A stretch of DNA of 40,847 bases from an uncultured Pseudomonadota bacterium (GTDB lineage Bacteria; Pseudomonadota; Gammaproteobacteria; Burkholderiales; Eutrophovitaceae): positions 1 to 40,847 of the forward strand of contig CAJXOL010000007.1 in assembly GCA_913057675.1 (NCBI GenBank). Reading direction: 5' to 3'. A program made the translations under genes and the position numbers. Every line of letters starts with the position of its first letter. The stretch's first letter is position 1. The notes under the pieces are model-generated. The model worked only from the letters and a program-made list of their open reading frames with translations. It ran no database searches and was not told the origin of the DNA. Positions 11,419-28,185 of the stretch are shown piece after piece.

Positions 11419-12021
11419 CTAATTGATTTTTCCGTTACGGATGATGCCAACCGCGAGGCCCTCTATGGCAAAGTCATCTCGTTCGCCATTCACATAGATA
11501 GGCTGAAAATCAGGATTTTCTGCTTCTAGCCATACTTCCTTGTTTTTCCGTTTGAAGCGTTTGACCGTGACTTCTTGGTTGATGCGTGCCACGATGATTT
11601 GCCCAGACCGTGCTTCTGATGTGGCATGGACGGCGAGTAAATCTCCATCATGGATGCCAACATCGCGCATGCTGCTTCCCCTCACTTTGAGTAGATAGTC
11701 TGCCGCAGGTCTAAACAAAGACTGCTCAACTTGGACCCTATTCTGTATGTGCTCTTCAGACAATATGGGTTGTCCAGCTGCCACTCGACCCACAATGGGC
11801 AGTCCGGCGTTTTTAAGTAGTTGTATTCCTCTTGATGTGCCACGTATGAGTTTGATGTGCCCTTTTTTTTCAAGTGCTTTGAGGTGGTCTTCGGCCGCAT
11901 TTGCAGATTTGAAACCCAGGGCTCGGGCTATATCTGATCGTGTAGGAGGGAAGCCAGTATTTTCAACAAAGCTTTGAATGAGGCTAAGAATTTCAGTTTG
12001 TCTTTGTGTCAGCAGTTTCAT
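11419..12021 (-). CDS. lexA: LexA SOS repressor
   Basis: A 200-aa repressor of the SOS response. The N-terminal winged helix (residues 1-65; [20 protein letters not shown]) binds the operator. The C-terminal S24 peptidase-like domain self-cleaves with RecA at A82-G83 (VAAGQP). The catalytic pair is S117 (RGSSM) and K154 (TVKRFK). The frame is open to 12102, but the family start [12 protein letters not shown] corresponds to ATG 12021, and the longer version would translate through the operator. It is the first gene of the operon lexA-imuA-imuB-dnaE2 and is autoregulated by the palindromic box 15-53 nt upstream. Confidence 0.97.
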
Positions 12022-12034
12022 ATCGATAGCAGTT

Positions 12035-12074
12035 AAATACCCAGTACTGTTATTATATACAGTACTGGGTATTT
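12035..12074. promoter_or_regulatory. LexA operator inside a 40-bp perfect palindrome
   Basis: The core CTGT-TATTATAT-ACAG (12047-12062) is a perfect gammaproteobacterial SOS box. It is embedded in a longer perfect inverted repeat: arms 12035-12050 and 12059-12074 are 16 bp each and fully complementary, with the 8-bp box spacer between them. Symmetry ends at 12034/12075. The box covers the lexA -10 element, so LexA bound here would block the promoter. Confidence 0.95.
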
Positions 12075-12079
12075 TCCAA
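12052..12079 (-). promoter_or_regulatory. Predicted lexA operon promoter
   Basis: On the minus strand TATAAT (plus 12052-12057) is a perfect -10. TTGGAA (plus 12074-12079) is a fair -35 with a 16-bp spacer. The start of transcription is expected near 12045, giving a ~24-nt leader before lexA. The LexA box lies across the -10 and spacer. Confidence 0.7.
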
Positions 12080-12102
12080 GGTAATATTTTTATAAAACGC
12101 AC

Positions 12103-12117
12103 GCACCATCGTAGTGC
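12103..12117. promoter_or_regulatory. NtrC-type binding site
   Basis: GCAC-CATCGTA-GTGC matches the NtrC (GlnG) half-site pair GCAC-N7-GTGC, and the dyad extends one further base (C/G) on each side. It lies about 140-150 bp upstream of the sigma-54 promoter of urtA, a normal distance for an enhancer site. This predicts nitrogen control of the urea locus. Confidence 0.6.
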
Positions 12118-12137
12118 GCCAGTTCTACCTTTTTGTC

Positions 12138-12159
12138 GTGCGGTGAGTGCAGTTAGTGC
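12138..12159 (+). repeat. Three GTGC direct repeats at 9-bp period
   Basis: GTGC begins at 12138, 12147 and 12156, each followed by a similar 5-mer (GGTGA, AGTTA, GTTTT). GTGC is also the NtrC half-site, so this may be a cluster of weak half-sites next to the good dyad at 12103-12117. Chance is not excluded. Confidence 0.4.
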
Positions 12160-12255
12160 GTTTTATCTCGTTATCACTCGTTGCAATCTCATGTCATTTG
12201 ATTTATGTGGTGCGCTTCTAATTTAAGCATCTGTTTTTTATGGTTTTTTTTATCA

Positions 12256-12271
12256 TGGCACGGTTCATGCT
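12256..12271 (+). promoter_or_regulatory. Sigma-54 promoter of the urea operon
   Basis: TGGCACG-GTTC-ATGCT matches the consensus TGGCACG-N4-TTGCW at all but one consensus base. The essential GG (-24) and GC (-12) are separated by exactly 10 bp. The predicted transcript start is near 12282, about 90 nt before urtA. With the upstream NtrC dyad this forms a standard nitrogen-regulated promoter. Confidence 0.75.
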
Positions 12272-12371
12272 TTATACCCTATTAGCAGTTCAGGATCTGA
12301 AGTTGATCTTAATAATTTCAGTTTCTGGGGTGAGGAAACATTTTTTTAACTACCGTTTAAGGATCATAAGA

Positions 12372-13622
12372 ATGAACCGAAAGCAATTCATAAAAACTGT
12401 AATTAGTGCGACACTCGGAATTAGTTCTGCGTTTGCAATGACGGCCCAGGCTGAGGAAACCATTAAGGTTGGCATCCTGCATTCTTTGTCGGGAACAATG
12501 GCTATTTCGGAGACGGCGTTGAAGAATACAGCGCTCATGACTATTGAGGAAATCAATGCTAATGGCGGATTATTGGGTAAACAACTTGAGCCAGTAGTGG
12601 TTGACCCTGCATCAAACTGGCCACTGTTTGCTGAAAAAGCCAGACAGTTAATCACGCAGGATGAGGTTGATGTCGTTTTTGGCTGTTGGACCTCTGTATC
12701 AAGAAAATCTGTATTACCAGTTTTTGAAGAATTAAATAATCTTCTGTTTTATCCCGTTCAGTACGAGGGGGAAGAGTTATCACAAAATGTGTTCTACACC
12801 GGAGCCGCTCCGAATCAACAAGCTATTCCAGCAGTTGAATATTTGATGAGTGAAGAGGGTGGTGGAGCTAAGCGTTGGTATCTTTTGGGGACAGACTATG
12901 TTTATCCTCGAACAACCAACAAAATCCTCCGAGCTTTCTTGATTTCTAAGGGTGTTGAAGAGTCAGATATTGAAGAGGTTTATACGCCTTTTGGTCACAG
13001 TGATTATCAAACCATTGTTGCTGATATTAAAAAATTCTCTGCTGGTGGGAAAACGGCTGTAGTGTCTACTATTAATGGTGACTCTAATGTTCCATTTTAC
13101 AAAGAGTTGGGTAATGCAGGCTTGAAAGCAACTGATGTCCCTGTCGTGGCATTCTCTGTTGGTGAGGAAGAGCTCCGAGGCATTGACACTAAGCCATTAC
13201 TTGGGCACTTGGCTGCTTGGAATTACTTCATGTCGGTTAAAGGTAAGCAAAACAGATCATTTACTAAAATGTATAAGGCATGGGCCATGAAAAACGGCGT
13301 CCCTAATCTTGATACTGTAGTAACTAATGATCCGATGGAGGCTACCTACGTTGGAATCAAAATGTGGGCACAGGCGGTAGAGCAGGCTGGAACTACGGAC
13401 GTAGATGCAGTCCGTGAGGCAATGGGTGGTCAGACATTCAAAGCGCCATCCGGCTTTACACTTACTATGGACGCGACAAATCACCATCTTCATAAGCCAG
13501 TTATGATTGGCGAGATCCTTCCAAACGGCCAATTTCAGGTGGTTTGGAGTACTAAGGCTCCCATCAGAGCTCAGCCTTGGAGCCCATTTATTACCGGCAA
13601 CGAGAGTAAGCAGGGATTGTAA
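12372..13622 (+). CDS. urtA: UrtA, urea ABC transporter substrate-binding protein
   Basis: A 416-aa periplasmic binding protein of the branched-chain amino acid/urea type that captures urea for UrtBCDE. The signal peptide spans residues 1-27 with cleavage after TAQA. The mature protein starts EETIKVGILHSLSGTMAISE, and VFGCWTSVSRKSVLPVFEE, NLLFYPVQYEGEE and STINGDSNVPFYKEL are UrtA signatures. The frame is open upstream to 12240, but ATG 12372 places the signal peptide correctly and has AAGGA about 9 nt upstream. It is the first gene of the urea operon, behind a sigma-54/NtrC promoter, and is followed by an attenuating hairpin. Confidence 0.96.
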   Translation: MNRKQFIKTVISATLGISSAFAMTAQAEETIKVGILHSLSGTMAISETALKNTALMTIEEINANGGLLGKQLEPVVVDPASNWPLFAEKARQLITQDEVDVVFGCWTSVSRKSVLPVFEELNNLLFYPVQYEGEELSQNVFYTGAAPNQQAIPAVEYLMSEEGGGAKRWYLLGTDYVYPRTTNKILRAFLISKGVEESDIEEVYTPFGHSDYQTIVADIKKFSAGGKTAVVSTINGDSNVPFYKELGNAGLKATDVPVVAFSVGEEELRGIDTKPLLGHLAAWNYFMSVKGKQNRSFTKMYKAWAMKNGVPNLDTVVTNDPMEATYVGIKMWAQAVEQAGTTDVDAVREAMGGQTFKAPSGFTLTMDATNHHLHKPVMIGEILPNGQFQVVWSTKAPIRAQPWSPFITGNESKQGL

Positions 13623-13689
13623 TAATCTCCTCTGGTGCTGGTATGAAATTGTTTAAATTACCAGTGTAAACGAAATACACAAAAGGTCT

Positions 13690-13715
13690 GCCTTGCTTCA
13701 AGCAGCAGGCTTTTT
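13690..13715 (+). terminator. Attenuating terminator between urtA and urtB
   Basis: GCCT-TGCT-TCA-AGCA-GC-AGGC forms a stem (one 2-nt bulge) followed by TTTTT (13711-13715). It lies in the only sizeable gap (113 bp) of the urt genes. Partial termination here would give more binding protein than membrane components, as is common in ABC importers. Confidence 0.6.
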
Positions 13716-13735
13716 GTGGTTAAGTTGACGCGAGC

Positions 13736-15355
13736 ATGTTGAATAACAAACGAAACGCATTATTATTTATTTTAAGTCTCCTTGCGCTCGCCTTTCCTAT
13801 GGCCGGTGCAGCGCTTGATCGAACGGATATATCTGGGTTGGCGTCAGAGCATGTAATGGAGCGTCTCAAAGCTATTGATAAGATTGCACGAGTCGGAGAT
13901 TCGGATGCGCTTAGACTACTGAAAGAGCTTCAAAACAGCGAGTTGTTAGTTACCGACACAGGTCAAATTGTTCTGGAAAATGATGATTGGAATGTGATTG
14001 ATGCGATCACATTGGAGATGCTCGACCCTCAGCCCGACACCTATAACACGGTTATTGTTAATAACCGTATGCGGTCCCAGCTCGAGAGCGCGGTGGGCGT
14101 ACTTCAATTGTTATCGGATGATAGGGAAATACGCCTTACCTCAGCGAAGTCTTTACGGGACAATCTATCCCCTTCATTGCTGACTTTTTTAAATAAAGCC
14201 CTCGCTCAGGAATCTGATGAGGAGATCGGGCGAATTTTAAAAGAGAGTCAATCCGTCATTTTGTTGGATAGCCCTGATGAGCAAGAGCGAATCGACGCGG
14301 TTAACTATTTAACGTCGAGCAGTGAACGACGTGTCCGAGAATTGCTAGTAGCTAAATTAGAAAAAAATGAATCAGGTGAATTTGAAGAGCCATCTGCTGA
14401 AGTCAGGGTGGCGATAGAATTCGCTGTCACTGCTATCGATCGGAAACTCACGTTTATCGATTATTTTGGGCGTTTATTTAGCGGGTTATCTCTAGGTAGC
14501 ATTTTACTTCTTGCCGCGATGGGTCTCGCGATTACATATGGACTGCTTGGCGTGATCAATCTTGCTCATGGAGAGATGTTGATGATTGGTGCCTACGCAA
14601 CTTACGTGACACAACAACTGTTTGTTAATTATCTACCAAACTATTTTGACCTATATGTTTTGGCTGCCATTCCGATGGCATTTCTTTCTTCGGCCATCAT
14701 TGGGGTCGTGCTTGAGCGTTCTGTTATTCGTTGGTTATATGGACGTCCACTTGAAACGCTATTGGCTACTTGGGGTATTAGTCTTTTTCTAATTCAGTTG
14801 GTTAGACAGATTTTTGGAGCGCAAAACGTTGAGGTGTCAAACCCAACTTGGTTGTCGGGAGGCGTTGAAGTATGGAATATCGTCATGCCTCTTAACCGTA
14901 TTGCTATTATTGTTTTTGCTGCCTTAGTGCTTATTGGTATTTGGTTGCTGATTAGTCAAACCAGGCTAGGATTATTTATCCGTAGCGTCACACAAAACCG
15001 AAGTATGGCAGCTTGTGTTGGTGTTAATACGGCTAAGGTCGATATGCTTGCATTCGGCTTAGGTTCCGGCATTGCAGGCTTAGCTGGCGTTGCTTTATCT
15101 CAAGTAGGTAATGTCGGACCGGATCTTGGTCAGGCGTACATCATTGATTCATTCATGGTTGTAGTGCTTGGTGGTGTGGGGCAATTAGCTGGAACGGTAT
15201 ATGCGGCGCTCGGTCTTGGAGTGTTCTCCAAATTCATTGAGCCTGGTGTTGGGGCGGTTTTAACTAAAATTATTATCCTCGTATTCATCATCGCTGTTAT
15301 TCAAAAGCGTCCTCAAGGGTTGTTTGCCCTAAAGGGACGTTCCGTGGAGGGATAA
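13736..15355 (+). CDS. urtB: UrtB, urea ABC transporter permease
   Basis: A 539-aa inner-membrane permease of the LivH type. It carries the N-terminal periplasmic extension found in UrtB: a signal-like segment (1-26) and about 210 residues of helical HEAT-like sequence (for example LKAIDKIARVGDSDALRLLKE). From ~245 the transmembrane core begins (GSILLLAAMGLAITYGLLG), with the conserved GLLGVINLAHGEMLMIGAY. The late motif GLGSGIAGLAGVALSQVGNVGP is typical. The next gene starts directly after the stop codon. The ribosome binding site is not obvious. Confidence 0.96.
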   Translation: MLNNKRNALLFILSLLALAFPMAGAALDRTDISGLASEHVMERLKAIDKIARVGDSDALRLLKELQNSELLVTDTGQIVLENDDWNVIDAITLEMLDPQPDTYNTVIVNNRMRSQLESAVGVLQLLSDDREIRLTSAKSLRDNLSPSLLTFLNKALAQESDEEIGRILKESQSVILLDSPDEQERIDAVNYLTSSSERRVRELLVAKLEKNESGEFEEPSAEVRVAIEFAVTAIDRKLTFIDYFGRLFSGLSLGSILLLAAMGLAITYGLLGVINLAHGEMLMIGAYATYVTQQLFVNYLPNYFDLYVLAAIPMAFLSSAIIGVVLERSVIRWLYGRPLETLLATWGISLFLIQLVRQIFGAQNVEVSNPTWLSGGVEVWNIVMPLNRIAIIVFAALVLIGIWLLISQTRLGLFIRSVTQNRSMAACVGVNTAKVDMLAFGLGSGIAGLAGVALSQVGNVGPDLGQAYIIDSFMVVVLGGVGQLAGTVYAALGLGVFSKFIEPGVGAVLTKIIILVFIIAVIQKRPQGLFALKGRSVEG

Positions 15356-16465
15356 ATGCAGTATCAATCAAATATTGAACCGTTATTTTCTAAGCTTGGT
15401 TGGCTTGGATTGATAACATTCGCTGTACTAACTCTTATCGTTGTGCCGTGGATGTATCTCTTTATTCCAGATGGTGGTGCATTTCATATTTCCTCCTACA
15501 CCGTGACGCTAATTGGCAAAATTATGTGTTATTGCATAGTCGCCGTGGCAATGAATTTGATATGGGGTTATGCGGGAATCTTATCCCTTGGCCAAGGTTT
15601 GTTTTTTGCTCTTGGTGGGTATTCTTTTGGGATGTATCTCATGCGGCAAATTGGTCAGGATGGTCAGTATCAGAGCGACCTGCCTGATTTTATGGTTTTT
15701 CTCGATTGGAAAGAATACCCGTTGCATTGGTTAGGCACAGATAGTTTTTTGTGGGCGATCGTGTTAGTCGTCTTAGTTCCTGGAGTTCTGGCCTTCGTAT
15801 TCGGATATTTTGCTTTTCGGTCTCGTATTAAAGGCGTGTATTTTTCAATTATTACTCAAGCCCTCACGTACGCGTTTATGTTGTTATTTTTCCGTAACGA
15901 GACGGGTTTTGGAGGTAATAACGGGTTTACTGACTTTAAACGAATACTGGGTTACTCCCTAACCGATCCAACGATGCGCGCAGCATTGTTTGGACTTAGT
16001 GCATTTTTCTTACTGCTCGTTTTAGTTCTCTCTCGAGTATTGATTAAATCCAAGTTTGGTCGAATATTGACTGCTATTAGAGATTCAGAGTCGCGTCTGA
16101 TGTTTTGCGGCTATGACCCGATTCGTTTTAAACTTTTCATTTGGACGCTCTCTGCGATCATCTGTGGTATCGCGGGTGCTTTATATGTGCCTCAAGTCGG
16201 CATCATCAATCCCAGTGAGATGTCTCCAGCAAATTCTATTGAGATCGCGGTATGGGTGGCTGTCGGTGGGCGAGGTACTATCCTCGGGCCCGTGATAGGT
16301 GCCGCAGCTGTAAATGGCGCTAAGAGTTTCTTCACGCAAGCCTTTCCGGAGTATTGGCTCTTTTTCTTAGGATTACTATTTATTTTAGTAACACTATGCC
16401 TGCCCTTTGGGATAGTCGGTTTGTTTTCTAAATTGAAGAATAAATTCAAAAAAATAGAGAGTTAA
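15356..16465 (+). CDS. urtC: UrtC, urea ABC transporter permease
   Basis: A 369-aa LivM-type permease that pairs with UrtB to form the urea channel. Several transmembrane helices are visible, with the family motif NLIWGYAGILSLGQGLFFALGGY at ~65-87 and FGGNNGFTDF at ~185-194. The motif ICGIAGALYVPQVGIINPSEM is typical of UrtC. The ATG immediately follows the urtB stop (TAA ATG), so translation is coupled. The C-terminus is lysine-rich and probably cytoplasmic. Confidence 0.96.
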   Translation: MQYQSNIEPLFSKLGWLGLITFAVLTLIVVPWMYLFIPDGGAFHISSYTVTLIGKIMCYCIVAVAMNLIWGYAGILSLGQGLFFALGGYSFGMYLMRQIGQDGQYQSDLPDFMVFLDWKEYPLHWLGTDSFLWAIVLVVLVPGVLAFVFGYFAFRSRIKGVYFSIITQALTYAFMLLFFRNETGFGGNNGFTDFKRILGYSLTDPTMRAALFGLSAFFLLLVLVLSRVLIKSKFGRILTAIRDSESRLMFCGYDPIRFKLFIWTLSAIICGIAGALYVPQVGIINPSEMSPANSIEIAVWVAVGGRGTILGPVIGAAAVNGAKSFFTQAFPEYWLFFLGLLFILVTLCLPFGIVGLFSKLKNKFKKIES

Positions 16466-16469
16466 ATCA

Positions 16470-17288
16470 ATGCAAGAAACATTAGGGATGAAAGACTCCA
16501 TTAGAAAAAATACTTTAGGAAGTGTCGCACGGAGAGGGGTCGATACGTCACACGGCCCTATTTTGTATCTTGACGACATTTCCGTAAGTTTCGATGGTTT
16601 TAAAGCATTAAATGCCCTCTCTTTAACAGTAGATGCGGGTGAGCTTAGATGCATTATTGGTCCGAATGGCGCGGGTAAGACCACAATGATGGATGTGATT
16701 ACAGGTAAAACAAAACCCGATTCTGGGACGGTGTTTTTTGGGCAAACACTTGATCTAAGTAGAATGAATGAACCTCAAATCGCATCTGCTGGGATCGGCC
16801 GTAAATTCCAAAAACCAACGGTTTTCGAGAATCACACAGTATTCGAAAATTTAGAGTTAGCCATGCAGTACGATAAGCGGGTTTGGGTTAGTCTCTTCGC
16901 TAAAAGAAAAAAATCACAGATAAAAAAAATTACTGAAACGATGGAAATTATAGACTTAGTTAATCAGGCAGGGCGATTGGCTGGGTTGCTTTCGCATGGG
17001 CAGAAACAGTGGCTTGAAATTGGCATGCTGCTGATGCAAGAGCCAAAACTTTTATTGCTGGATGAACCAGTAGCAGGGATGACAGATGACGAGACTGCGA
17101 AAACAGCGAAGCTTTTCAAGTCTCTCGCAGGAGAGCGCTCGTTAGTGGTTGTTGAACATGATATGGAGTTTGTTGCGGAGATTGCATCGACAGTCACCGT
17201 TTTACACGAAGGTGCAGTGTTAGCCGAGGGTCGCATGGAGGACGTGCAATCGAATGATCGTGTGATTGAAGTCTATTTGGGGCGTTAA
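16470..17288 (+). CDS. urtD: UrtD, urea ABC transporter ATPase
   Basis: A 272-aa ABC ATPase, LivG type, powering urea import. Walker A is GPNGAGKT (near residue 65), the ABC signature is LSHGQKQWLEIGML, and Walker B is LLLLDEPVAGM. The motif GIGRKFQKPTVFENHTVFEN marks UrtD rather than a generic LivG. The N-terminus has ~25 extra residues before the ATPase core, so the true start could be slightly downstream. The gene follows urtC with a 4-nt gap. Confidence 0.96.
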   Translation: MQETLGMKDSIRKNTLGSVARRGVDTSHGPILYLDDISVSFDGFKALNALSLTVDAGELRCIIGPNGAGKTTMMDVITGKTKPDSGTVFFGQTLDLSRMNEPQIASAGIGRKFQKPTVFENHTVFENLELAMQYDKRVWVSLFAKRKKSQIKKITETMEIIDLVNQAGRLAGLLSHGQKQWLEIGMLLMQEPKLLLLDEPVAGMTDDETAKTAKLFKSLAGERSLVVVEHDMEFVAEIASTVTVLHEGAVLAEGRMEDVQSNDRVIEVYLGR

Positions 17289-17291
17289 ATT

Positions 17292-17990
17292 ATGTTAGAA
17301 GTTAAAAATATTAATCAATATTATGGCTCTAGCCATACTCTGAAAAATGTGAGTTTCACAGTGCCCACTGGGGCTGTAACGACTTTACTAGGTAGAAATG
17401 GAGTTGGTAAAACTACACTTCTCAACTGTTTGATGGGGGTTTTAGAGACGACAAGTGGAACGATTCATATCAATGGTTCAGATGTCACAGGACAACCATC
17501 TTATGTTCGAGCTCGTCAAGGTGTTGGTTATGTGCCGCAGGGGAGAGAAATATTTTCGCGATTGACAGTTGAGGAAAATTTATTAATGGGCCTTGCGACA
17601 AAATCTAAAGGAGCGTTATCGGACCTGCCGCATGAAATATTTGATATGTTCCCAGTTTTAAATGAAATGCTCCATCGGCGTGGAGGGGACTTATCTGGTG
17701 GGCAGCAGCAGCAACTAGCGATAGGTAGGGCACTCGCGATGTCACCAAACACTTTGATTCTTGATGAGCCTACCGAGGGTATTCAGCCATCGATTATCAA
17801 AGATATTGGTAATGCGATTCGCTTGTTAGCTGCGCGGGGTGATATGGCCATCTTATTGGTGGAGCAATATTATGATTTTGCAAAAGATCTTGCCGATCAT
17901 TACATTATTCTTCAACGCGGGGAAGTCATCAAGTCGGGTTTGGGTGAAGACATGGATGCTGATAATGTTAGACATTATTTATCAGTATGA
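17292..17990 (+). CDS. urtE: UrtE, urea ABC transporter ATPase
   Basis: A 232-aa ABC ATPase, LivF type, partner of UrtD. Walker A is GRNGVGKT (residues ~34-41), the signature is LSGGQQQQLAIGRAL, and Walker B is LILDEPTEGIQPS. The stretch GVGYVPQGREIFSRLTVEENL is typical of UrtE. It starts 3 nt after urtD, and its stop overlaps the ureD start codon as ATGA, directly coupling import genes to urease genes. Confidence 0.96.
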   Translation: MLEVKNINQYYGSSHTLKNVSFTVPTGAVTTLLGRNGVGKTTLLNCLMGVLETTSGTIHINGSDVTGQPSYVRARQGVGYVPQGREIFSRLTVEENLLMGLATKSKGALSDLPHEIFDMFPVLNEMLHRRGGDLSGGQQQQLAIGRALAMSPNTLILDEPTEGIQPSIIKDIGNAIRLLAARGDMAILLVEQYYDFAKDLADHYIILQRGEVIKSGLGEDMDADNVRHYLSV

Positions 17991-18823
17991 ACTTAACAGA
18001 TAGTCCATCACCTTCTTGGTTTGCGGATTTGCAACTTGCTTTTGGTTTTCGTGAGGGCAGGACGGCAATGATCCGAAATAAACACGAGGGACCACTTGTC
18101 GTTCAAAAAGCGCTGTACCCAGAAGGCCCTGAGCTTTGTCAAATCTTGATTGTCCATCCTCCAGGAGGTATTGCTGGTGGTGATGAATTAAGGGTTAGTT
18201 GCGATTTGGATGTGGGAGCTAGGGTTCAACTAACTACTCCCGGTGCTACAAAGTGGTATGAAAGTTTCGATAGTCCCTCAAAACAATTCATAACTCTAAA
18301 CCTGGCTGCAGCGAGTATCTGTGAGTGGCTTCCGCAGGAGAATATTATCTTTAATAGATGCTTGGTCGATGTTGTAACAGAGGTCAATGTTGAGTCAGGT
18401 GCTATTTTTGTCGGCTGGGATTTCTATTCGTTAGGTCGTCACGTAAAACATGCCCCTCTCTTACATGGTCAACTCAAGCAAAAAACTAAAATCTTAATTG
18501 ATGGTATTCCAATATTTACGGAGCGTACGCTTTTTGACCCAGATCGCTTAATGGATGGTCCTGGAATTTTGGATGGATATTCCAATTACGGAACAATGTT
18601 CATTGTTGGTTTAGATCAGAATCCTGCGCTAATTGAAGATTTAAGAAAGATCGCCGAAGGTGAAATGCATTGCGCTTTAACTTGGTTGGATGGGGTATTA
18701 ATCGCGCGATGGGTAGGGGCAGACATCGAGGCTGGGCGCGATATTTTCACAGCGATATGGGCGAGGTTACGACCGGTTTATTTTCTGCGTCCGGCTGTTA
18801 AGCCTCGAATTTGGAATACTTAA
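17987..18823 (+). CDS. ureD: UreD (UreH) urease accessory protein
   Basis: A 278-aa scaffold protein that binds apo-urease and recruits UreF and UreG for nickel delivery. Conserved blocks are GREGRTAMIRNKHEGPLVVQKALYPEG-like (residues ~18-45), LIVHPPGGIAGGDEL (~52-66), TPGATKWYES (~82-91) and EWLPQENIIFN (~110-120). The start ATG overlaps the urtE stop by 4 nt. As usual ureD precedes ureABC. Confidence 0.96.
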   Translation: MNLTDSPSPSWFADLQLAFGFREGRTAMIRNKHEGPLVVQKALYPEGPELCQILIVHPPGGIAGGDELRVSCDLDVGARVQLTTPGATKWYESFDSPSKQFITLNLAAASICEWLPQENIIFNRCLVDVVTEVNVESGAIFVGWDFYSLGRHVKHAPLLHGQLKQKTKILIDGIPIFTERTLFDPDRLMDGPGILDGYSNYGTMFIVGLDQNPALIEDLRKIAEGEMHCALTWLDGVLIARWVGADIEAGRDIFTAIWARLRPVYFLRPAVKPRIWNT

Positions 18824-18850
18824 TGCGTAATAATTGAATGAGGTGATTCA

Positions 18851-19153
18851 ATGAATTTAACTCCGAGAGAGAAAGATAAATTATTAATTTTTACTGCGAG
18901 TTTGCTGGCGGAAAGACGCCTCAAAAAAGGGTTGCTTCTGAATTATCCAGAGGCTGTAGCCTATATTTCTGCAGAGATCATGGAGGGTGCGCGAGAAGGC
19001 AGAACTGTAGCGGATTTAATGTCATACGGTGCAACATTGTTGGCGCGCTCCCAGGTGATGGAGGGGGTGCCAGAGATGATCCCAGAGATTCAGGTCGAGG
19101 CGACCTTCCCCGATGGGACCAAGTTAGTAACCGTTCATCAACCGATTGTTTGA
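18851..19153 (+). CDS. ureA: Urease gamma subunit UreA
   Basis: A 100-aa gamma subunit of the three-part bacterial urease, which hydrolyses urea to ammonia and carbamate in the cytoplasm. The sequence is canonical throughout: [14 protein letters not shown] at the start, [19 protein letters not shown], and [18 protein letters not shown] near the end. The length matches the family (100). GAGGTG lies upstream of the ATG at a suitable distance. Confidence 0.97.
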
Positions 19154-19163
19154 GGAACTAAGC

Positions 19164-19472
19164 ATGATACCTGGAGAAATTGAGACCTTGGAAGGTGATA
19201 TAGAAATTAACCAAAATAGGACGTTAGTCACCATCATCGTATGTAACGCTGGAGATCGGCCGATTCAAGTGGGCTCTCACTATCATTTTTACGAAACCAA
19301 CTCAGCGCTCGAATTTGATCGGGAGCAAAGTAGGGGATTTCGTTTAAATGTTGCAGCTGGTACAGCTGTTCGATTTGAGCCAGGTCAAAAGAGAACGGTT
19401 GAGCTAGTCGCGTTTGGGGGAGATCGAAAAGTTTTTGGATTTAGGGGTCTGGTAATGGGAGATTTGACATGA
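19164..19472 (+). CDS. ureB: Urease beta subunit UreB
   Basis: A 102-aa beta subunit of urease. Typical features are [16 protein letters not shown] at the start, the motif [16 protein letters not shown], and a C-terminal [10 protein letters not shown]. The frame is open from a TTG at 19146 inside ureA, but ATG 19164 matches the family N-terminus and has GAGGAA about 7 nt upstream. Its stop overlaps the ureC ATG (ATGA). Confidence 0.97.
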
Positions 19473-21175
19473 CTAATAAAATCGATCGTCGCGCTTATGC
19501 GGAGATGTTTGGCCCAACGGTTGGCGATCGTGTGCGTTTGGCGGACACCGATTTATGGATTGAGGTCGAAGAAGATAAGACGATACCAGGGGAGGAAGTT
19601 AAGTTTGGTGGTGGGAAAGTCATTCGTGACGGAATGGGACAGGGTCAGAGACCTGCCGACGCGGTTGCGGACACAGTCATTACGAATGCTTTAATTGTTG
19701 ACCATACGGGAATTATCAAAGCTGATATTGCGATAAAGGATGGTCGTATCAGTGGAATTGGTAAAGCAGGTAACCCAGATGTGCAACCAGGAGTTGACAT
19801 CGTGATTGGTGCGGCGACGGAAATTATTGCAGGCGAGGGCTCTATCGTAACTGCTGGGGGAGTTGACGCTCATATTCATTTTATTTGTCCGCAACAGATT
19901 GAAGAAGCATTGTCTTCCGGTGTCACTACGATGTTAGGCGGCGGAACAGGACCTGCTACGGGTACAAATGCTACAACTTGTACGCCTGGTCCTTGGCACA
20001 TTTCGAGGATGCTTCAATCGGCTGATGCGTTTCCTATGAACCTAGGGTTCATGGGTAAAGGGAACGCGAGTTTACCACTGCCGTTGGAGGAACAAATCGC
20101 AGCGGGTGCTATGGGCCTGAAGTTACATGAGGATTGGGGCACCACGCCTGCGTCCATTGATAATTGCTTAACGGTAGCAGACGCCTCAGATGTTCAGGTT
20201 GCAATTCATACCGACACCTTGAATGAGTCAGGGTTTGTGGAGGATACCCTCGCTGCATTTAAGGACAGAGTCATACACACGTACCATACAGAGGGTGCGG
20301 GTGGAGGTCATGCTCCCGATATCATTAAAGCGTGTGGTTTTGCCAACGTCTTACCTTCTTCTACTAATCCGACACGCCCGTATACCGTCAATACAATAGA
20401 CGAACATTTAGACATGTTGATGGTTTGCCACCATCTGGATCCAGCAATCGCAGAAGATGTTGCTTTTGCAGAATCGAGAATACGTCGTGAAACAATCGCA
20501 GCTGAAGACGTACTGCATGATTTGGGCGCGTTCAGCATGATAGCGAGTGATTCACAGGCCATGGGTCGAGTCGGAGAGGTTATTTGTCGGACGTGGCAGA
20601 CGGCTCATAAAATGAAAGTTCAACGGGGCCCATTGCCTGAGGACTCTGATCGGTCTGATAATTTTCGCGTAAAGCGTTACGTGTCGAAATACACTATAAA
20701 TCCAGCAATTACTCATGGTGTTGCTCATGAGGTTGGTTCGATAGAAGTCGGCAAGTTAGCTGATATTGTGCTTTGGAAGCCGGCTTTTTTTGGCGTAAAA
20801 CCCTCTATGATCTTAAAGGGAGGCGTTATTGCAATGTCCCTTATGGGGGACCCCAATGCCTCTATCCCTACGCCTCAACCGGTTCATTATCGATATATGT
20901 TCGGTGCTTATGGTGGGTCTATGAGTCACTCCTCGGTTACATTTGTTTCTCAAGCGGCTATTGATTCTAACGTTCGGGGCCAATTAAATCTGAATAAACG
21001 TCTTGTTCCAGTTCGTAATACGAGGACGATCTCCAAGGCATCAATGATTTTGAATACACTCCAGCCAAAAATAGAGGTTGATCCGCAAAATTATCATGTT
21101 TATGCGGATGGTGAATTGCTAACGTGTGAGCCAGCTACAGTACTGCCGCTGGCGCAGCGATACTTCTTGTTTTAA
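19469..21175 (+). CDS. ureC: Urease alpha subunit UreC (catalytic)
   Basis: A 568-aa catalytic subunit with a bi-nickel centre. All ligands are present: H135 and H137 (DAHIHF), the carbamylated lysine K218 (GLKLHEDWG), H247 (IHTDTLNE), H273 ([10 protein letters not shown]) and D361 (SDSQAMGR). The mobile flap carries C320 and H321/H322 (MVCHHLD). Length matches bacterial UreC (567-570). Nothing suggests inactivation. It overlaps ureB by 4 nt and is followed by ureE after 3 nt. Confidence 0.98.
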
Positions 21176-21178
21176 ATC

Positions 21179-21694
21179 ATGTTGGTTATTACAAAACGAG
21201 CAGACACTACCTCAACCGTGGATGTCGAAGTTTCACTTACGTTTGATGTGAGAAAAAAATCTCGATTTAAGACATTTAGTGTCGACGGCGAAGAAGTGGG
21301 TATATTTCTGGAGCGGGGTGCAATCCTTTCCGATGGTGATTGTTTAATGAGTGAGGATGGGAGAGTAGTCCGAGTTGTCGCTAAGGATGAATCACTGCTT
21401 CAGATCAAGCGGGGATCATCACGATCTCTTGCGCAGCTTGCATATCACCTTGGTAATCGTCACGTCTCAATAGAGATTGACGTGGATTCATTAAGTATTG
21501 CGTACGATCAGGTTTTGAAAGATATGGTTGAAGGTTTGGGTGCTCAAACGCTAGCAGTTACGGCTCCATTTCATCCCGAAAGTGGAGCCTACGGTGGTGG
21601 ACACAGTCATGGATCAGAGCATGGAAAAGGTCGAGGACCAATTATTCATGAATTCCCCCCTTTGACCGATTTGAGTGTCGATGATGACGCGTAA
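21179..21694 (+). CDS. ureE: UreE urease nickel metallochaperone
   Basis: A 171-aa nickel chaperone that passes Ni2+ to UreG. The N-terminal peptide-binding domain contains DVRKKSRFKT and ILSDGDCL; the metal-binding domain contains LAYHLGNRHVSIEID. The C-terminus has a modest His-rich tail (HPESGAYGGGHSHGSEHG), shorter than in Klebsiella. The start is 3 nt after ureC. Its end overlaps the beginning of ureF. Confidence 0.95.
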   Translation: MLVITKRADTTSTVDVEVSLTFDVRKKSRFKTFSVDGEEVGIFLERGAILSDGDCLMSEDGRVVRVVAKDESLLQIKRGSSRSLAQLAYHLGNRHVSIEIDVDSLSIAYDQVLKDMVEGLGAQTLAVTAPFHPESGAYGGGHSHGSEHGKGRGPIIHEFPPLTDLSVDDDA

Positions 21695-22364
21695 CAATTT
21701 GATGAATATGCTGAGGCTTTCTAGCCAATCTTTACCTACCGGGGCGTTCAGTTATTCTCAGGGAATGGAGTGGTTGGTAGATACGCAACGAATTCATAAT
21801 GAGTCAACAGTGTACGAGTGGGTCGCATCAATCCTTCTAGGGCCATATGCAAACTATGAGCTGCCTATTCTGCGAGAGATGTTTGATGCTTGGAATCGTG
21901 TTGATCATCAAGCTATTGAAGTCCTTAATCTGGATTATCTGAGCTCTAGAGAGACCGTTGAGATACAAAAAGAGACGTTGCAGATGGGATACGCTATTCG
22001 GGCTGTCATCCGGGAAATGGACACTACTTCTAATCACTCAACTCAATTCTTATCGCAATTAGATAATTTAAGTTTCCCTATTGGATTCTCTTTTTGCTGT
22101 AATCAAAATGGTTTATCGGTCGATGAAATGCTGACGAGTTATGTGTGGTCTTTCATTGAGAATCAGATTCTTGTTGCCATAAAGGCAGTGCCGCTTGGGC
22201 AGAGTGCCGGCCAGAGACTTTTGAATGTGCTGATACCTGCAGGGGACGAGGCAGTTCAGATATCACTCTTGGTCGATATAAATGATTGGTCAAATTTTTC
22301 GCCATTACAGGCTATAGCAAGTGCGAAACACGAAACGCAGTATTCGAGGTTGTTTAGATCGTGA
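21681..22364 (+). CDS. ureF: UreF urease accessory protein
   Basis: A ~227-aa all-helical protein that binds UreD and gates nickel transfer from UreG. The family motif LRLSSQSLPTGAFSYSQGME is near the N-terminus, with VDEMLTSYVWSFIENQILVAIKAVPLGQ at ~150 and PLGQSAGQRLL. Several starts are possible: GTG 21675, ATG 21681, 21684, 21702 or 21708. I chose 21681; all overlap or abut the ureE stop (21694). The product is slightly divergent but complete. Confidence 0.93.
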   Translation: MMTRNNLMNMLRLSSQSLPTGAFSYSQGMEWLVDTQRIHNESTVYEWVASILLGPYANYELPILREMFDAWNRVDHQAIEVLNLDYLSSRETVEIQKETLQMGYAIRAVIREMDTTSNHSTQFLSQLDNLSFPIGFSFCCNQNGLSVDEMLTSYVWSFIENQILVAIKAVPLGQSAGQRLLNVLIPAGDEAVQISLLVDINDWSNFSPLQAIASAKHETQYSRLFRS

Positions 22365-22397
22365 CACTAATAAATATAAATGAATAGGAGTGATTTT

Positions 22398-23018
22398 ATG
22401 GCGTCTTCCCCTTTAAGAGTTGGTATTGGTGGTCCCGTTGGATCAGGTAAAACTGCCTTAACTTTAGCTTTGTGTAGGGGCATGAGAGACAAATACGAGA
22501 TTGCAGTGGTCACTAACGATATCTACACGAAAGAAGATGCTGATTTTTTGGTACGCAACGGTGCGCTCACTCCAGATCGGATCATAGGAGTCGAGACGGG
22601 TGGTTGCCCGCATACGGCGATTCGTGAGGACGCGTCTATTAATCTCGAAGCTGTGGGGCGCCTTAGCAACCGCTTCGATTTAGATGCTGTTTTTATTGAA
22701 AGTGGCGGTGATAATTTGGCCGCTACATTTTCGCCTGAATTGTCTGATTTAACAATTTATGTCATTGATGTATCTGCTGGAGAAAAAATACCTAGAAAGG
22801 GTGGTCCAGGCATCACCAAGTCAGACTTGTTGGTCATAAATAAGATAGATTTAGCTCCGATGGTCGGAGCTTCTCTCGAAGTGATGGAGAGAGACGCGCT
22901 TAGGATGCGGGGTGATAAACCATTTATTTTTAGCAACTTGAAAATAGATCAAGGATTAGCCGAGATAACTGAGTTCGTTGTTGAGGAAGGTATGCTTGGT
23001 CGGTTGCAACGGGTTTAG
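22398..23018 (+). CDS. ureG: UreG urease GTPase
   Basis: A 206-aa SIMIBI GTPase that provides energy for nickel insertion. The P-loop GGPVGSGKT is at 11-19, the nickel-binding CPH motif at C70-H72 ([14 protein letters not shown]), then [15 protein letters not shown], and the guanine-specificity motif NKIDLAP. ATG 22398 is preferred over 22380 because TAGGAG lies 7-8 nt before it. It is the last gene of the urea operon; the next gene has its own strong ribosome binding site after an 83-bp gap. Confidence 0.97.
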
Positions 23019-23101
23019 CGTGTAAAACTTATCAACATCACTGGCATGAAAGTTTAAAGTGGTCGTAGTACTATCTTGATATCACAACTAGGAGGGTTCT
23101 C

Positions 23102-23926
23102 ATGATTGATGTCAAGTGTTCCAAACAGTTTCTTGTTCCCATTTTTGCAGCATTGTTTTTGTCCAGTTGCGGCGGACCAGATGTCGCACAGATCATTGAT
23201 GATGCTCTAGTCGCTGAGCATCGGACTCCTGCCTATGCTGAGCGAGATGAGTTCCGACATCCAAAAGAGACGCTGCTCTTCTTTGGTTTAAAACCGGAAA
23301 GTTCTGTGGTCGAAATCACGCCCGGGTTTGGTTGGTACGCTGAGATTCTGGCCCCGTTGCTTAGCGGTAATGGACAGTATTACTACACTTCCTATACGTT
23401 GGATGAGGATATTAATCCTTACTTTATTAAAGTAGAAAAGGCATTTAAAGAAAAAATTGCGCTGAACCCTGATATTTACGAGAAACTAACTTGGGTTCAT
23501 TTCGACTCAAGTCAGCCTGAGTTTGCGCCGGATGGCCCCGTTGACATGGTTCTGACATTCAGAAACGTGCATAACTGGGCAAAATCTGGAGCTACTGAAT
23601 CAATGTTTGCTGGCTTTGCCCAGGCGCTCAAGCCGGGCGGTGTTCTCGGTCTTGTCGAACATAGAGCGAAACCAGGAACGCCGTTAGAGGAGCAGATTCG
23701 CAGTGGCTACATGACAGTCGAATATGTTGTTCAAATGGCAAAAAATGCTGGCTTTCGTTTAGATGCCTCTTCCGAGATTAATGCAAACTCTAAGGACACT
23801 ACCGATCATCCAGGCGGTGTTTGGAACTTATTGCCGAACCTCAGAAATGTATCGGAAGAAGACAAAGTTGCGATCGTAACGATTGGAGAGTCCGATCGAA
23901 TGACTTTGAGGTTTGTTAAAGAGTAA
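23102..23926 (+). CDS. Lipoprotein with class I methyltransferase fold
   Basis: A 274-aa protein with an N-terminal lipoprotein signal: hydrophobic FLVPIFAALFLSSCGG, lipobox LSSC, so lipid attachment to the Cys at ~24. The rest resembles predicted methyltransferases (COG4798-like): a motif I-like VVEITPGFGWYAEILAPLL (~66-84), LTFRNVHNW (~148-156), and ALKPGGVLGLVEHRA (~174-188). The acidic-residue/glycine pattern is relaxed (EITPGFG). A SAM enzyme outside the cytoplasm lacks an obvious methyl donor, so an altered function is possible. AGGAGG lies 7 nt before ATG 23102, a perfect ribosome binding site. It lies between ureG and fhs and has no evident partner. Confidence 0.8.
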   Translation: MIDVKCSKQFLVPIFAALFLSSCGGPDVAQIIDDALVAEHRTPAYAERDEFRHPKETLLFFGLKPESSVVEITPGFGWYAEILAPLLSGNGQYYYTSYTLDEDINPYFIKVEKAFKEKIALNPDIYEKLTWVHFDSSQPEFAPDGPVDMVLTFRNVHNWAKSGATESMFAGFAQALKPGGVLGLVEHRAKPGTPLEEQIRSGYMTVEYVVQMAKNAGFRLDASSEINANSKDTTDHPGGVWNLLPNLRNVSEEDKVAIVTIGESDRMTLRFVKE

Positions 23927-23972
23927 GTTGATTGAACATTAGTTTTCGTAACATGAAAGTGAAAGATTAAAG

Positions 23973-25649
23973 ATGCTAACTGACATAGAAATTGCCCAAC
24001 AGGCTAAGTTAAAACGGATCGCTGAGATTGCCACGCAACGGTTGGGTATTCCTGAGGAGCATGTGGAGCCTTATGGGCATTACAAAGCTAAATTGACCAA
24101 TGAATTTGTCGCGAGCTTACAAGACAAACCGGACGGCAAATTAATTTTGGTCACGGCCATCAGTCCGACTCCAGCAGGTGAGGGTAAAACCACGACCACA
24201 GTAGGGCTTGGCGATGCGATGAACTCTATCGGCAAGGATGCGCTAATTTGTTTAAGGGAACCGAGTCTGGGGCCTGTTTTCGGAATGAAAGGTGGTGCTG
24301 CCGGTGGTGGATTCGCACAAATTGTACCGATGGAGGATATTAACCTTCACTTTACGGGCGATTTCAACGCTATACAGTTAGCTAATAACTTGTTGTCAGC
24401 GATGCTCGACAATCATATCCATCACGGAAATTCCTTAGGTATTGATGTGCGTCGTATCACATGGAAACGTGTAGTAGACATGAATGATCGGGCGCTCCGC
24501 TCTATAGTTGTCTCTCTAGGTGGTCCGGGGAACGGTTATCCACGTGAAGATGGGTTCGACATCGTAGTTGCTTCTGAAGTGATGGCGATTCTTTGCCTCG
24601 CTGAATCTATGACGGACTTAAAAGAACGTTTGGGTCGTATTGTCGTGGCGTATACCCGAGATAAAAAACCAGTTCTCGCTGCTGAGCTCGAGGCACATGG
24701 TGCCATGGCTGTTTTATTAAAAGATGCTGTGAAGCCAAATTTGGTTCAAACTTTGGAAAATAATCCAGCAATTATTCATGGTGGGCCATTCGCTAATATC
24801 GCTCATGGATGTAATTCAGTGATTGCGACGAGGACATCACTCAAGTTGGCTGATTACGTGATCACAGAGGCGGGGTTCGGTGCAGATCTCGGTGCAGAGA
24901 AATTCATTGATATCAAGTGTCGAAAATCTGGATTGAAACCAGATGTGGTGGTGCTTGTGGCCACGATTCGAGCGTTAAAGTTTCATGGAGGTATCGCGTT
25001 AGCGGATTTAAACCAAGAAAACTTAATGGCGCTGGATGCTGGTTTCGCAAATTTGGAACGCCACGTCGATAACATGCGTAACGTCTTTAATCTGCCTTGT
25101 GTGGTGTCGATTAATCATTTCACCCATGACTCGGATGCTGAAATAACCTTGCTTCAAGAGCGATGCGATGCGCTTGGTGTGTCGGTGGTTGTGTCTAAGC
25201 ACTGGGCAGAGGGTGGTAAGGGTGCGCAAGCGCTGGCGCACAAAGTTATCGATATTATTGAGAATGAAAAACCTGAGCTTACATTTGCTTACGAAGATGA
25301 GGATAGTCTTGAGCACAAAATAGAATCAATTGCGATAAAGATTTATGGGGCTGCTGATGTTAAGTTTGATACGAAAGCCAAAATCAGACTGGCCGAGCTT
25401 GAGAAGGAAGGCCATGGGGCATTGCCAGTCTGTATCGCTAAAACGCAGTATTCCTTTTCCATTGATCCTAGCCTTAAAGGTGCGCCAACTGGGCATACGC
25501 TAACCGTGCGTGAGATTCGACTATCTGCTGGTGCAGGGTTTGTCGTCGTAGTATGTGGAGACGTCATGACGATGCCTGGTTTGCCGAAGGTCCCTGCGGC
25601 TACTCGTATTGATTTGAGCGGAGATGGGAAAGTTGTTGGGTTGTTTTAA
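23973..25649 (+). CDS. fhs: Formate-tetrahydrofolate ligase
   Basis: A 558-aa ATP-dependent enzyme that makes 10-formyl-THF from formate and THF in cytoplasmic one-carbon metabolism. The phosphate-binding loop [11 protein letters not shown] is at 66-76. Other family marks are [34 protein letters not shown] and [13 protein letters not shown]. The length matches the family (about 555-560). It is 42 nt upstream of a GltD-like flavoprotein on the same strand. Known contexts are purine synthesis, serine/glycine interconversion and oxidation of methyl groups from betaine-like compounds. Confidence 0.97.
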
Positions 25650-25691
25650 TGTTTGGATGTCTCGCATGAAATCGGGTCGAGAGCCGTTACG

Positions 25692-27467
25692 ATGAGCGGC
25701 CCCAAAATTACTGCGCTCACAAAGCCCGAGGGGATCAGTAGTCACGCGCGAGACATTGCTTGGGTTGAGGCGAACATTCCATGTCAGGTCGCCTGTCCCG
25801 CGGGAACCGATATTCCTGGATATATTGAGGCGATCAACAATGGAAAATTAGACGAAGCCTATTCCATCAATTTTAGGGATAACGTGTTTCCTGGCGTTCT
25901 TGGGCGCGTGTGCTCTAGGCCTTGTGAAAGTGCATGTAGGCACAGCAGGCCAGGTCTTGGAGATTCTGTAGCTATTTGTGCTCTCAAAAGATCATCAGCT
26001 GATCTGGGTGGCGCACTCACTATCCGACCCGAAATGAAATCATCCAGTGGTTATCATGTCGCGGTTATTGGTGCTGGTGTTGCGGGGCTGGCTGCTGCGC
26101 GAGACCTCGCATTGGAGGGGCACAAGGTTATCGTGTATGAAAAGCACAGTCGTCCGGGAGGCATGATGGTGCAAGGGATTCCGTCGTTTCGATTGCCTAG
26201 AGATGTGGTTGAGCATGAGATTAATCAGGTTTTATCTCTCGGTGTGGAACTCAAGTGCGGTGTCAGTATTGGTAATGATTACAGTCTTGATACACTTGTT
26301 GATTCGCATGATGCGGTCGTTCTGGCTGCAGGAACTTTAAATGGTAACCGTTTAGATATCCCTGGGGGTAACCTGGCGGGAGTTGAGCATGGCCTAGAGT
26401 TCCTTATGATGGTTAATGAACAAGGTCGAAAACACATAGGCTCTAATGTTGTGGTAATCGGTGGTGGATATACTGCAATGGACTGCGCGCGAACGGCTAT
26501 TAGATTAGGGGCAGAGACTGCTGTGTATTACCGTCGTGGACCTCAGGATATGGTTGTCTTGCCTGGTGAGGTTCAAGAATTGTTGAATGAGACCGGGGCA
26601 ATGAATTATTTTAAAACGCCTAGCCAATTTCGTGGTGGGGAATCAATTCAACAAGTTTCTTTGGCGAAGACGCGTATTGATATGGAAGGCGGGAAGTCGA
26701 TCATTCGTATAGATACGGGTAGTTCAACGGATATTGATGTGGATAGTGTGATTTTAGCTACAGGTCAGACCGCAGATACAGACTGGATTTCAGGACACAT
26801 CAGAGAAGCCATCTTAAATGAGCAAGGCGATGTTTCGATAGCCCAAGGCGCGCTTACGCCAGATCCTAAAGTGTTTGTGGCGGGTGACTTTGCTACCGGT
26901 GCCACAACGCTGATCGATGCAATAGCCCATGGGCGAAAAACCGCTTCACTTGTGACGCGATTCCTCACTGGGCAGGATATATCCAGTAGGAAAGTTCAGA
27001 TTGAAAAAAAACGTTTTGGCGTTGATTTTGAAGGAGGTCGATTTCTCAGAACGCAAGAAATGAATGTTATTCCGATTACTCCGGTCCCAGCGCTCGATTT
27101 GGTGGATAGGCAAGGCAGCAAGGAAGTTGAACTTGGGTATGACAATGGGACCAGTGTAGAAGCCGCTAAGCGGTGCTACTTATGCCATTACAAGTTTGAA
27201 ATTGACAACAGATTATGTGTGCTTTGCGATGAATGCATAAAGGTGAAGCCTACAGAGGGCTGTATCTTGCCCGTATCGGGTCTAGAGGTTGATGCTGCTG
27301 GGGTAGTTGTTAGGTATAAGCACCTGCAGAAAGGCAAATCAGATTCTCTTTACTATAATCAGCTTTGGATCGATCAAGACAAGTGTATCCGTTGTGGTCA
27401 ATGTGAAGCGGTATGCCCGGTTGGTGCCATATCAATACAAAAGGTTAGCTTTGTTAAAGTGCAGTAA
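25692..27467 (+). CDS. GltD-like FAD/NAD(P) oxidoreductase with C-terminal iron-sulfur domain
   Basis: A 591-aa flavoprotein. The N-terminal [4Fe-4S] region has cysteines at C31, C35, C74, C78 and C82 (CQVACPAGTD, CSRPCESACRH), as in the glutamate synthase small chain and related proteins. FAD is bound at VIGAGVAGLAAA (~126-137) and NAD(P) at VVVIGGGYTAMDCARTA (~263). The C-terminus adds two further cysteine groups: CYLC...CVLCDEC...C and the ferredoxin motif CIRCGQCEAVCP. It therefore probably passes electrons between NAD(P)H and ferredoxin or another carrier. The frame is open to TTG 25653; I chose ATG 25692. No glutamate synthase large subunit is nearby; the partner gene is fhs. Confidence 0.88.
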   Translation: MSGPKITALTKPEGISSHARDIAWVEANIPCQVACPAGTDIPGYIEAINNGKLDEAYSINFRDNVFPGVLGRVCSRPCESACRHSRPGLGDSVAICALKRSSADLGGALTIRPEMKSSSGYHVAVIGAGVAGLAAARDLALEGHKVIVYEKHSRPGGMMVQGIPSFRLPRDVVEHEINQVLSLGVELKCGVSIGNDYSLDTLVDSHDAVVLAAGTLNGNRLDIPGGNLAGVEHGLEFLMMVNEQGRKHIGSNVVVIGGGYTAMDCARTAIRLGAETAVYYRRGPQDMVVLPGEVQELLNETGAMNYFKTPSQFRGGESIQQVSLAKTRIDMEGGKSIIRIDTGSSTDIDVDSVILATGQTADTDWISGHIREAILNEQGDVSIAQGALTPDPKVFVAGDFATGATTLIDAIAHGRKTASLVTRFLTGQDISSRKVQIEKKRFGVDFEGGRFLRTQEMNVIPITPVPALDLVDRQGSKEVELGYDNGTSVEAAKRCYLCHYKFEIDNRLCVLCDECIKVKPTEGCILPVSGLEVDAAGVVVRYKHLQKGKSDSLYYNQLWIDQDKCIRCGQCEAVCPVGAISIQKVSFVKVQ

Positions 27468-27588
27468 CGACACTTTTCTTTCAGTTTGTTACGATCTATA
27501 CTAAATATGTTATGTCGAGAGCCAGCGCTATTAATTGGTGTGCTAGTTCTCGAAACGCGAAGTTCATCCATAACGATGGGGGTAGAGC

Positions 27589-28149
27589 GTGGCATTTGTA
27601 TTAGCACTTGATGCGACTGGTGTCCCCAGTCGATGGCTGCAACTAGAGAATGCAATCACTTATCATGCCCGAGGTATGGTGGCTTGGTCGCTAGGTGAGG
27701 CGATAGCTACATTTCGTGGTGGCGTGTCGCGTTTAACCGGTGAGCGATCGGAGATTCAAACCCAAAGTATTATTGCTATTAAAGGTTCTGTGGATCGATT
27801 TATGGGTAATCCACATCCTTCATTAACAAACAGCGCCTTGTTTTCTCGTGACCGTAAAATCTGCGCGTACTGCGGTGATCAATATCGAGAAAGAGAACTT
27901 TCGCGCGATCACATCACTCCTGTTCATGGAGGTGGTGAAGATAAATGGATGAATGTCGTTACTGCTTGTCGACCTTGTAACATCAGAAAGGGTGGGCGTA
28001 ATCCGGATCAGGCGAAAATGCCGTTGTTGTTTTTGCCGTATATTCCGAATAGGTACGAGCATTTAGTTTTGCAAAATAGAACAATTTTGCAAGATCAGGC
28101 TGAATATTTAATGGCAAAGGTGCCGAAGTATAGTCGTCTTCATGGCTAG
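27589..28149 (+). CDS. HNH endonuclease
   Basis: A 186-aa protein with a C-terminal HNH nuclease domain. Zinc-type cysteine pairs are C92/C95 (CAYC) and C127/C130 (CRPC). Catalytic residues are D107-H108 (SRDHITP), H113 and N122 (WMNVVTAC), followed by NIRKGGRNP. The first ~85 residues form a separate helical region with no motif I know. The start is GTG 27589, with a GGGGG stretch upstream. It stands alone, without a methyltransferase or restriction partner, so a restriction role is not supported. This type is a common chromosomal gene of unknown role. Confidence 0.88.
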   Translation: MAFVLALDATGVPSRWLQLENAITYHARGMVAWSLGEAIATFRGGVSRLTGERSEIQTQSIIAIKGSVDRFMGNPHPSLTNSALFSRDRKICAYCGDQYRERELSRDHITPVHGGGEDKWMNVVTACRPCNIRKGGRNPDQAKMPLLFLPYIPNRYEHLVLQNRTILQDQAEYLMAKVPKYSRLHG

Positions 28150-28185
28150 GCTACCTGAGGCAATCTTATTAAAGTAGGTGAATTC

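Follow-up and report, generated by a model that had tools for sequence, protein, structure and literature searches.

A predicted NtrC- and sigma-54-dependent promoter in front of the urea transport and urease genes of an uncultured Burkholderiales bacterium

How a long block of urea genes that stands back to back with lexA is switched on is the question raised by the locus described here. It lies in a stretch of 40,847 nucleotides from an uncultured member of the Burkholderiales; this whole stretch is what we call the window. An earlier note on this DNA had placed twelve urea import and urease genes behind a single promoter, and all twelve are indeed present, arranged tightly head to tail in the order urtABCDE-ureDABCEFG (Table 1). 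The largest internal gap, between urtA and urtB, is 113 bp, terminator-like sites show no excess over shuffles, and the gene order is identical in genomes G008 and G001; the layout suggests that the twelve genes are co-transcribed. We take urtA to start at the ATG at 12372. The mechanical reading frame begins further upstream, with an ATG at 12240, but the protein matches of relatives begin from 12372, and a start at 12240 would place the promoter inside the gene.

Table 1. Coordinates of the predicted features in the lexA-urtA intergenic region and the adjoining genes (window positions).
Feature	Position	Strand	Basis
lexA, divergent neighbour	11419-12021	-	TIGR00498 above cut-off
LexA box CTGT-N8-ACAG before lexA	12047-12062	no strand	motif match
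sigma-70-like lexA promoter TTGGAA-16-TATAAT, overlapping the LexA box	12052-12079	-	consensus match only
NtrC-type dyad (upstream activating site) GCACCATCGTAGTGC	12103-12117	no strand	letters and position conserved in relatives
sigma-54 -24/-12 promoter element TGGCACGGTTCATGCT	12256-12271	+	consensus match; conserved in relatives
Predicted 5' leader of the urt-ure transcript	12282-12371	+	predicted start 12 bp after the -12 GC
urtA, urea-binding protein	12372-13622	+	TIGR03407 above cut-off (scanned from the 12240 start)
urtB, urtC, urtD, urtE, urea ABC transporter	13736-17990	+	TIGR03409, TIGR03408, TIGR03411, TIGR03410 above cut-off
ureD, urease accessory	17987-18823	+	PF01774
ureA, ureB, ureC, urease subunits	18851-21175	+	profile matches
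ureE, ureF, ureG, urease accessory	21179-23018	+	profile matches

Some other features within and beyond the block are worth recording. At 19621-19907 of the window, on the minus strand and antisense to ureC, there is a match (103 bits) to the Rfam family 5_ureB_sRNA (RF02514), a family described from Helicobacter; this match is probably not an RNA gene, because the reverse strand of a conserved coding sequence would also score. After ureG there is a conserved gene encoding 274 amino acids (23102-23926) that matches nothing in Pfam or NCBIfam at the thresholds applied, and at 27589-28149 there is a small HNH-endonuclease protein that is conserved in the genus and has a weak likeness to IscB (40 bits, against a cut-off of 175).

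Promoters recognised by sigma-54 follow the consensus TGGCACG-N4-TTGCW, and NtrC sites follow GCAC-N7-GTGC. The earlier note had claimed a near-consensus sigma-54 promoter with exact GG-N10-GC spacing before urtA, and a GCAC-N7-GTGC dyad upstream of it, and the presence of both elements is confirmed. The first reads TGGCACG-GTTC-ATGCT and agrees with the consensus at 11 of the 12 letters, with GG at 12257-12258, ten intervening bases, and GC at 12269-12270; from the end of the -12 GC at 12270 to the urtA ATG is 101 bp. The second is a perfect copy of the dyad (8/8 letters) lying 153 bp from the -24 element, a spacing within the 100 to 250 bp upstream at which an NtrC site was sought. Although NtrC sites are often paired, and several relatives carry paired NtrC-type sites 31 bp apart, pairing is usual rather than obligatory; at this locus, the best other match between 12040 and 12260 has five of the eight letters. 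At the level of sequence, these observations support the interpretation of the DNA before the urea genes as what would be a standard proteobacterial nitrogen-starvation switch, with an NtrC site and a sigma-54 promoter.

Neither motif is significant genome-wide when taken alone. In the 2,134,415-base genome, the sigma-54 pattern with at most one mismatch has 24 matches compared with 13 for a reversed control, and the exact dyad has 17 compared with 13 for its control; within the window, and at a looser threshold, both fall below expectation from shuffles (4 versus 5.6 matches for the sigma-54 pattern, and 8 versus 11.8 for the dyad). The combination, unlike each motif alone, is significant. 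When a gene is required to have both an exact dyad no further than 250 bp away and a sigma-54 site with at most one mismatch within 150 bp, a rough estimate from motif densities gives an expectation of about 0.0035 genes per genome, whereas three are observed: urtA, glnK-amtB, and a second amt gene (amt2). Among the remaining dyads, one (L081) has a 9/12 sigma-54 site downstream, inside a reading frame, and nine further dyads checked on their loci are without a sigma-54 site; two of the 17 dyad sites have no locus of their own, one of these being the second glnA dyad. We note that two exact GCAC-N7-GTGC dyads some 400 bp apart (G000:C8:25919-25933 and 26316-26330) flank a gene whose 127-amino-acid product has no family assignment and which precedes an FGE-sulfatase-like gene, with no sigma-54 site nearby.

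The strongest evidence that both elements are real comes from their conservation across species. We looked for UrtA orthologues in 61 genomes, one of them the source genome, and the same-order set comprised 21 urtA upstream regions with enough DNA, the window among them; a sigma-54 site with at least 9/12 letters and a dyad with at least 7/8 were required, in the right order and within 200 bp. Two orthologues were dropped (L027, in which the start of the contig cuts into the gene, and L035, a partial gene), distant paralogues or weak matches (L029-L034 and L036) were left out, and L022 and L163, which look like the same record, were counted once in each set. A sigma-54 site was found in 20/21 of the same-order regions and a dyad also in 20/21, with both present in 19, compared with 0.21 on average and at most 2 over 100 shuffles; the two misses are L019, which lacks the dyad, and L028, which lacks the sigma-54 site. 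In a set of named loci (79 of 80, L120 having been dropped with too little upstream DNA), both elements were found in 43, against a shuffle mean of 1.27 and maximum of 5, and the other 36, several enterobacteria among them, do not have both at these thresholds. In an alignment of the genus the two elements stand out, their position and key letters being kept while the flanking DNA has diverged, with the dyad retaining seven of its eight letters in two urtA-bearing congeners, G001 and G006.

The earlier note had suggested looking for rpoN and ntrBC in the genome, and for the same dyad at the glnA and amtB promoters, and these searches bear out the prediction. The rpoN gene is on contig C15 (E 6.2e-58), and ntrB is present (NF008293 above cut-off); glnA, ntrB, and the N-terminal part of ntrC are linked on contig C121, and the C-terminal part of ntrC is at one end of contig C49. 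These pieces, each at a contig end, correspond to residues 1-149 and 232-463 of TIGR01818, and neither exceeds the whole-protein cut-off. The contig ends at L002:1-40, L003:1710-1738, and L039:1940-1985 translate into the recurring strings VYKRQ and SPSPRDRQ, and resemble sequencing adapters that were not removed from the assembly. The split in ntrC is likely an assembly break, because both ends read into what seems to be the same kind of adapter-derived sequence; an intact ntrC was found in 18 of the 21 genomes searched, the source genome being among the three without. A search with PF00158 gave five matches, three of them weak. Of the strong pair, one is the C-terminal piece of NtrC and the other is a regulator encoded just upstream of fliE, whose contig (C122) also carries the C-terminal piece of one more activator. 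The C122 activators are probably flagellar, because they are beside fliE; with the other clear sigma-54 activators lying there, NtrC is the sole nitrogen-type activator seen and the natural activator for the urtA promoter.

At the core Ntr regulon of the source genome, the same dyad and -24/-12 element are found as at urtA. The distance from the dyad to the start of the sigma-54 element is 79 bp at glnK-amtB, and 97 and 68 bp at amt2; glnA(-ntrBC) has two exact dyads and a weaker, 9/12, sigma-54-like site, at 109 bp. The dyad to -24 spacing at urtA (153 bp) is thus longer than the 68-109 bp at the other nitrogen genes.

We consider it very probable (roughly 0.92) that an ordinary Ntr-regulon promoter drives the urt-ure genes. 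Upon nitrogen limitation, NtrB would phosphorylate NtrC, and NtrC~P would bind the dyad (12103-12117) and possibly also weaker adjoining sites, contacting through DNA looping the sigma-54 RNA polymerase parked at 12256-12271. The ATPase of NtrC would then open the promoter, with transcription predicted to start near 12282 and the transcript most likely spanning urtABCDE-ureDABCEFG, such that cells short of ammonium would take up urea and cleave it to ammonia. The binding of NtrC, the start site, induction by nitrogen limitation, and co-transcription are all parts of this mechanism that we infer.

The position of the dyad raises the question of whether it serves urtA at all. As the earlier note had described, and as is true of the layout, the divergent lexA and urea systems share a short region, and 24 bp separate the dyad from the predicted -35 of lexA, which it precedes; it could belong to the lexA side, with NtrC or another factor bound there also modulating the lexA promoter and hence the SOS response. 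The divergent lexA-urtA pair is itself conserved, in 10 of 22 urtA loci (nine in the same family and one in another family), yet none of the 80 named urtA loci, other Burkholderia included, has lexA in its flank, and many of them keep the dyad. Moreover, the distance from the dyad to lexA varies, but its relation to the sigma-54 site is kept. Genomes with lexA but no adjoining urtA give a mixed pattern. G003, one of two congeners lacking urtA and ureC, has cleanly lost the whole urea block and the sigma-54 site (C8, L181:1364-1680), such that lexA is followed directly by the counterpart of the gene at 23102-23926 of the window, yet the dyad is still there in perfect form, 82 bp before lexA. 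This dyad has no changes in 15 positions compared with G004 and G008, whereas the flanks differ at 13-14 of 69 (∼20%), and by our own arithmetic, uncorrected, the chance of its remaining unchanged is about 0.03. G002 has a degenerate dyad (7/8) on a contig that ends ∼133 bp before lexA, and the family members G010 and G012 have no dyad before lexA. The simplest reading of the G003 dyad is that it is a relic of a recent loss of the urea block, and an assignment of the dyad to lexA is very unlikely. A related proposal is that the NtrC site also acts on the divergent lexA promoter, with nitrogen starvation tuning SOS mutagenesis; the lexA side has the context lexA-imuA-imuB-dnaE2, and if NtrC did act there, the perfect G003 dyad would be a sign of a second role. 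We regard this proposal as about equally unlikely, and no link of NtrC to SOS or lexA, or of lexA to urtA, was found in the titles and abstract beginnings among the literature matches listed.

Two other explanations set NtrC aside altogether. Rather than binding a protein, the dyad could form a terminator or insulator hairpin that separates the divergent units, and a terminator-like match is listed on the minus strand at 12119-12101. However, such a hairpin would stop leftward transcripts before lexA, for which there is no known source, and the palindrome, imperfect in both G001 and G006, shifts in other genera, while GCAC-N7-GTGC is kept; with terminator-like matches in the region showing no excess over shuffles (13 versus 14.9), a hairpin role is highly improbable. 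Alternatively, both motifs may have arisen by chance and urtA be driven by an ordinary sigma-70 promoter, a view with which the modest frequency of each motif alone, hardly commoner than control in genome or window, would be compatible. Against it are the joint occurrence of the motifs and their conservation across species, and a sigma-70-like scan of 11900-28200 lists no promoter before urtA on the plus strand. Because both elements are conserved far above shuffles, we consider the chance explanation so very unlikely as to be close to negligible. The Ntr-regulon promoter is thus the reading that we prefer.

In the genus, the leader predicted for the urt-ure transcript forms a hairpin (z -1.98), and this fold is found in the five congeners examined, with base changes that keep the pairs, for example in G006. 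Over 76 urtA leaders the mean z is -0.27, with four below -2, and the possibility of a leader RNA element or general RNA switch was rejected because the hairpin is not general among them; an Rfam search found no RNA family at the promoter.

Control of urea genes by NtrC and sigma-54 is already known in relatives, and the arrangement is an ordinary one that a specialist would expect. In Burkholderia cenocepacia H111, neither urea nor nitrate is reported to serve an ntrC mutant as its only source of nitrogen, and the listed genes among I35_0765-0775, which include ureF, ureE, ureC, ureA, urtD, urtB, and a urea-binding protein, are down by 4.2 to 7.8 log2 units (PMC5491218). As in the window, the urea ABC transporter genes of H111 adjoin those for urease and its accessory proteins, although the dependence of that system on NtrC and sigma-54 is reported from experiment, and here it is predicted from sequence (PMC5491218). 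An rpoN mutant of Paraburkholderia phymatum is likewise reported not to use urea (PMC5748707). The urtA promoter of Pseudomonas putida (PP_4841) responds to nitrogen limitation by induction, which is attributed to NtrB/NtrC; it is treated as dependent on sigma-54 and NtrC, and it resembles in this respect the one predicted here (PMC8050072, PMC7801951). The locus tag of P. putida ureD is a distant one (PP_2842), so that, unlike here, urt and ure do not form one block. More broadly, urease and urea transporters are predicted targets of NtrC in Alteromonadales, Oceanospirillales, Rhizobiales, and Rhodobacterales according to a comparative study (PMC5343134), and a sigma-54 survey describes urease genes as enriched in alpha- and betaproteobacteria (PMC12316311). 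What emerges is a well-supported regulatory annotation for this bacterium, which leaves knowledge of NtrC unchanged: urea would be a back-up nitrogen source, switched on together with glnA, glnK-amtB, and the second ammonium transporter.
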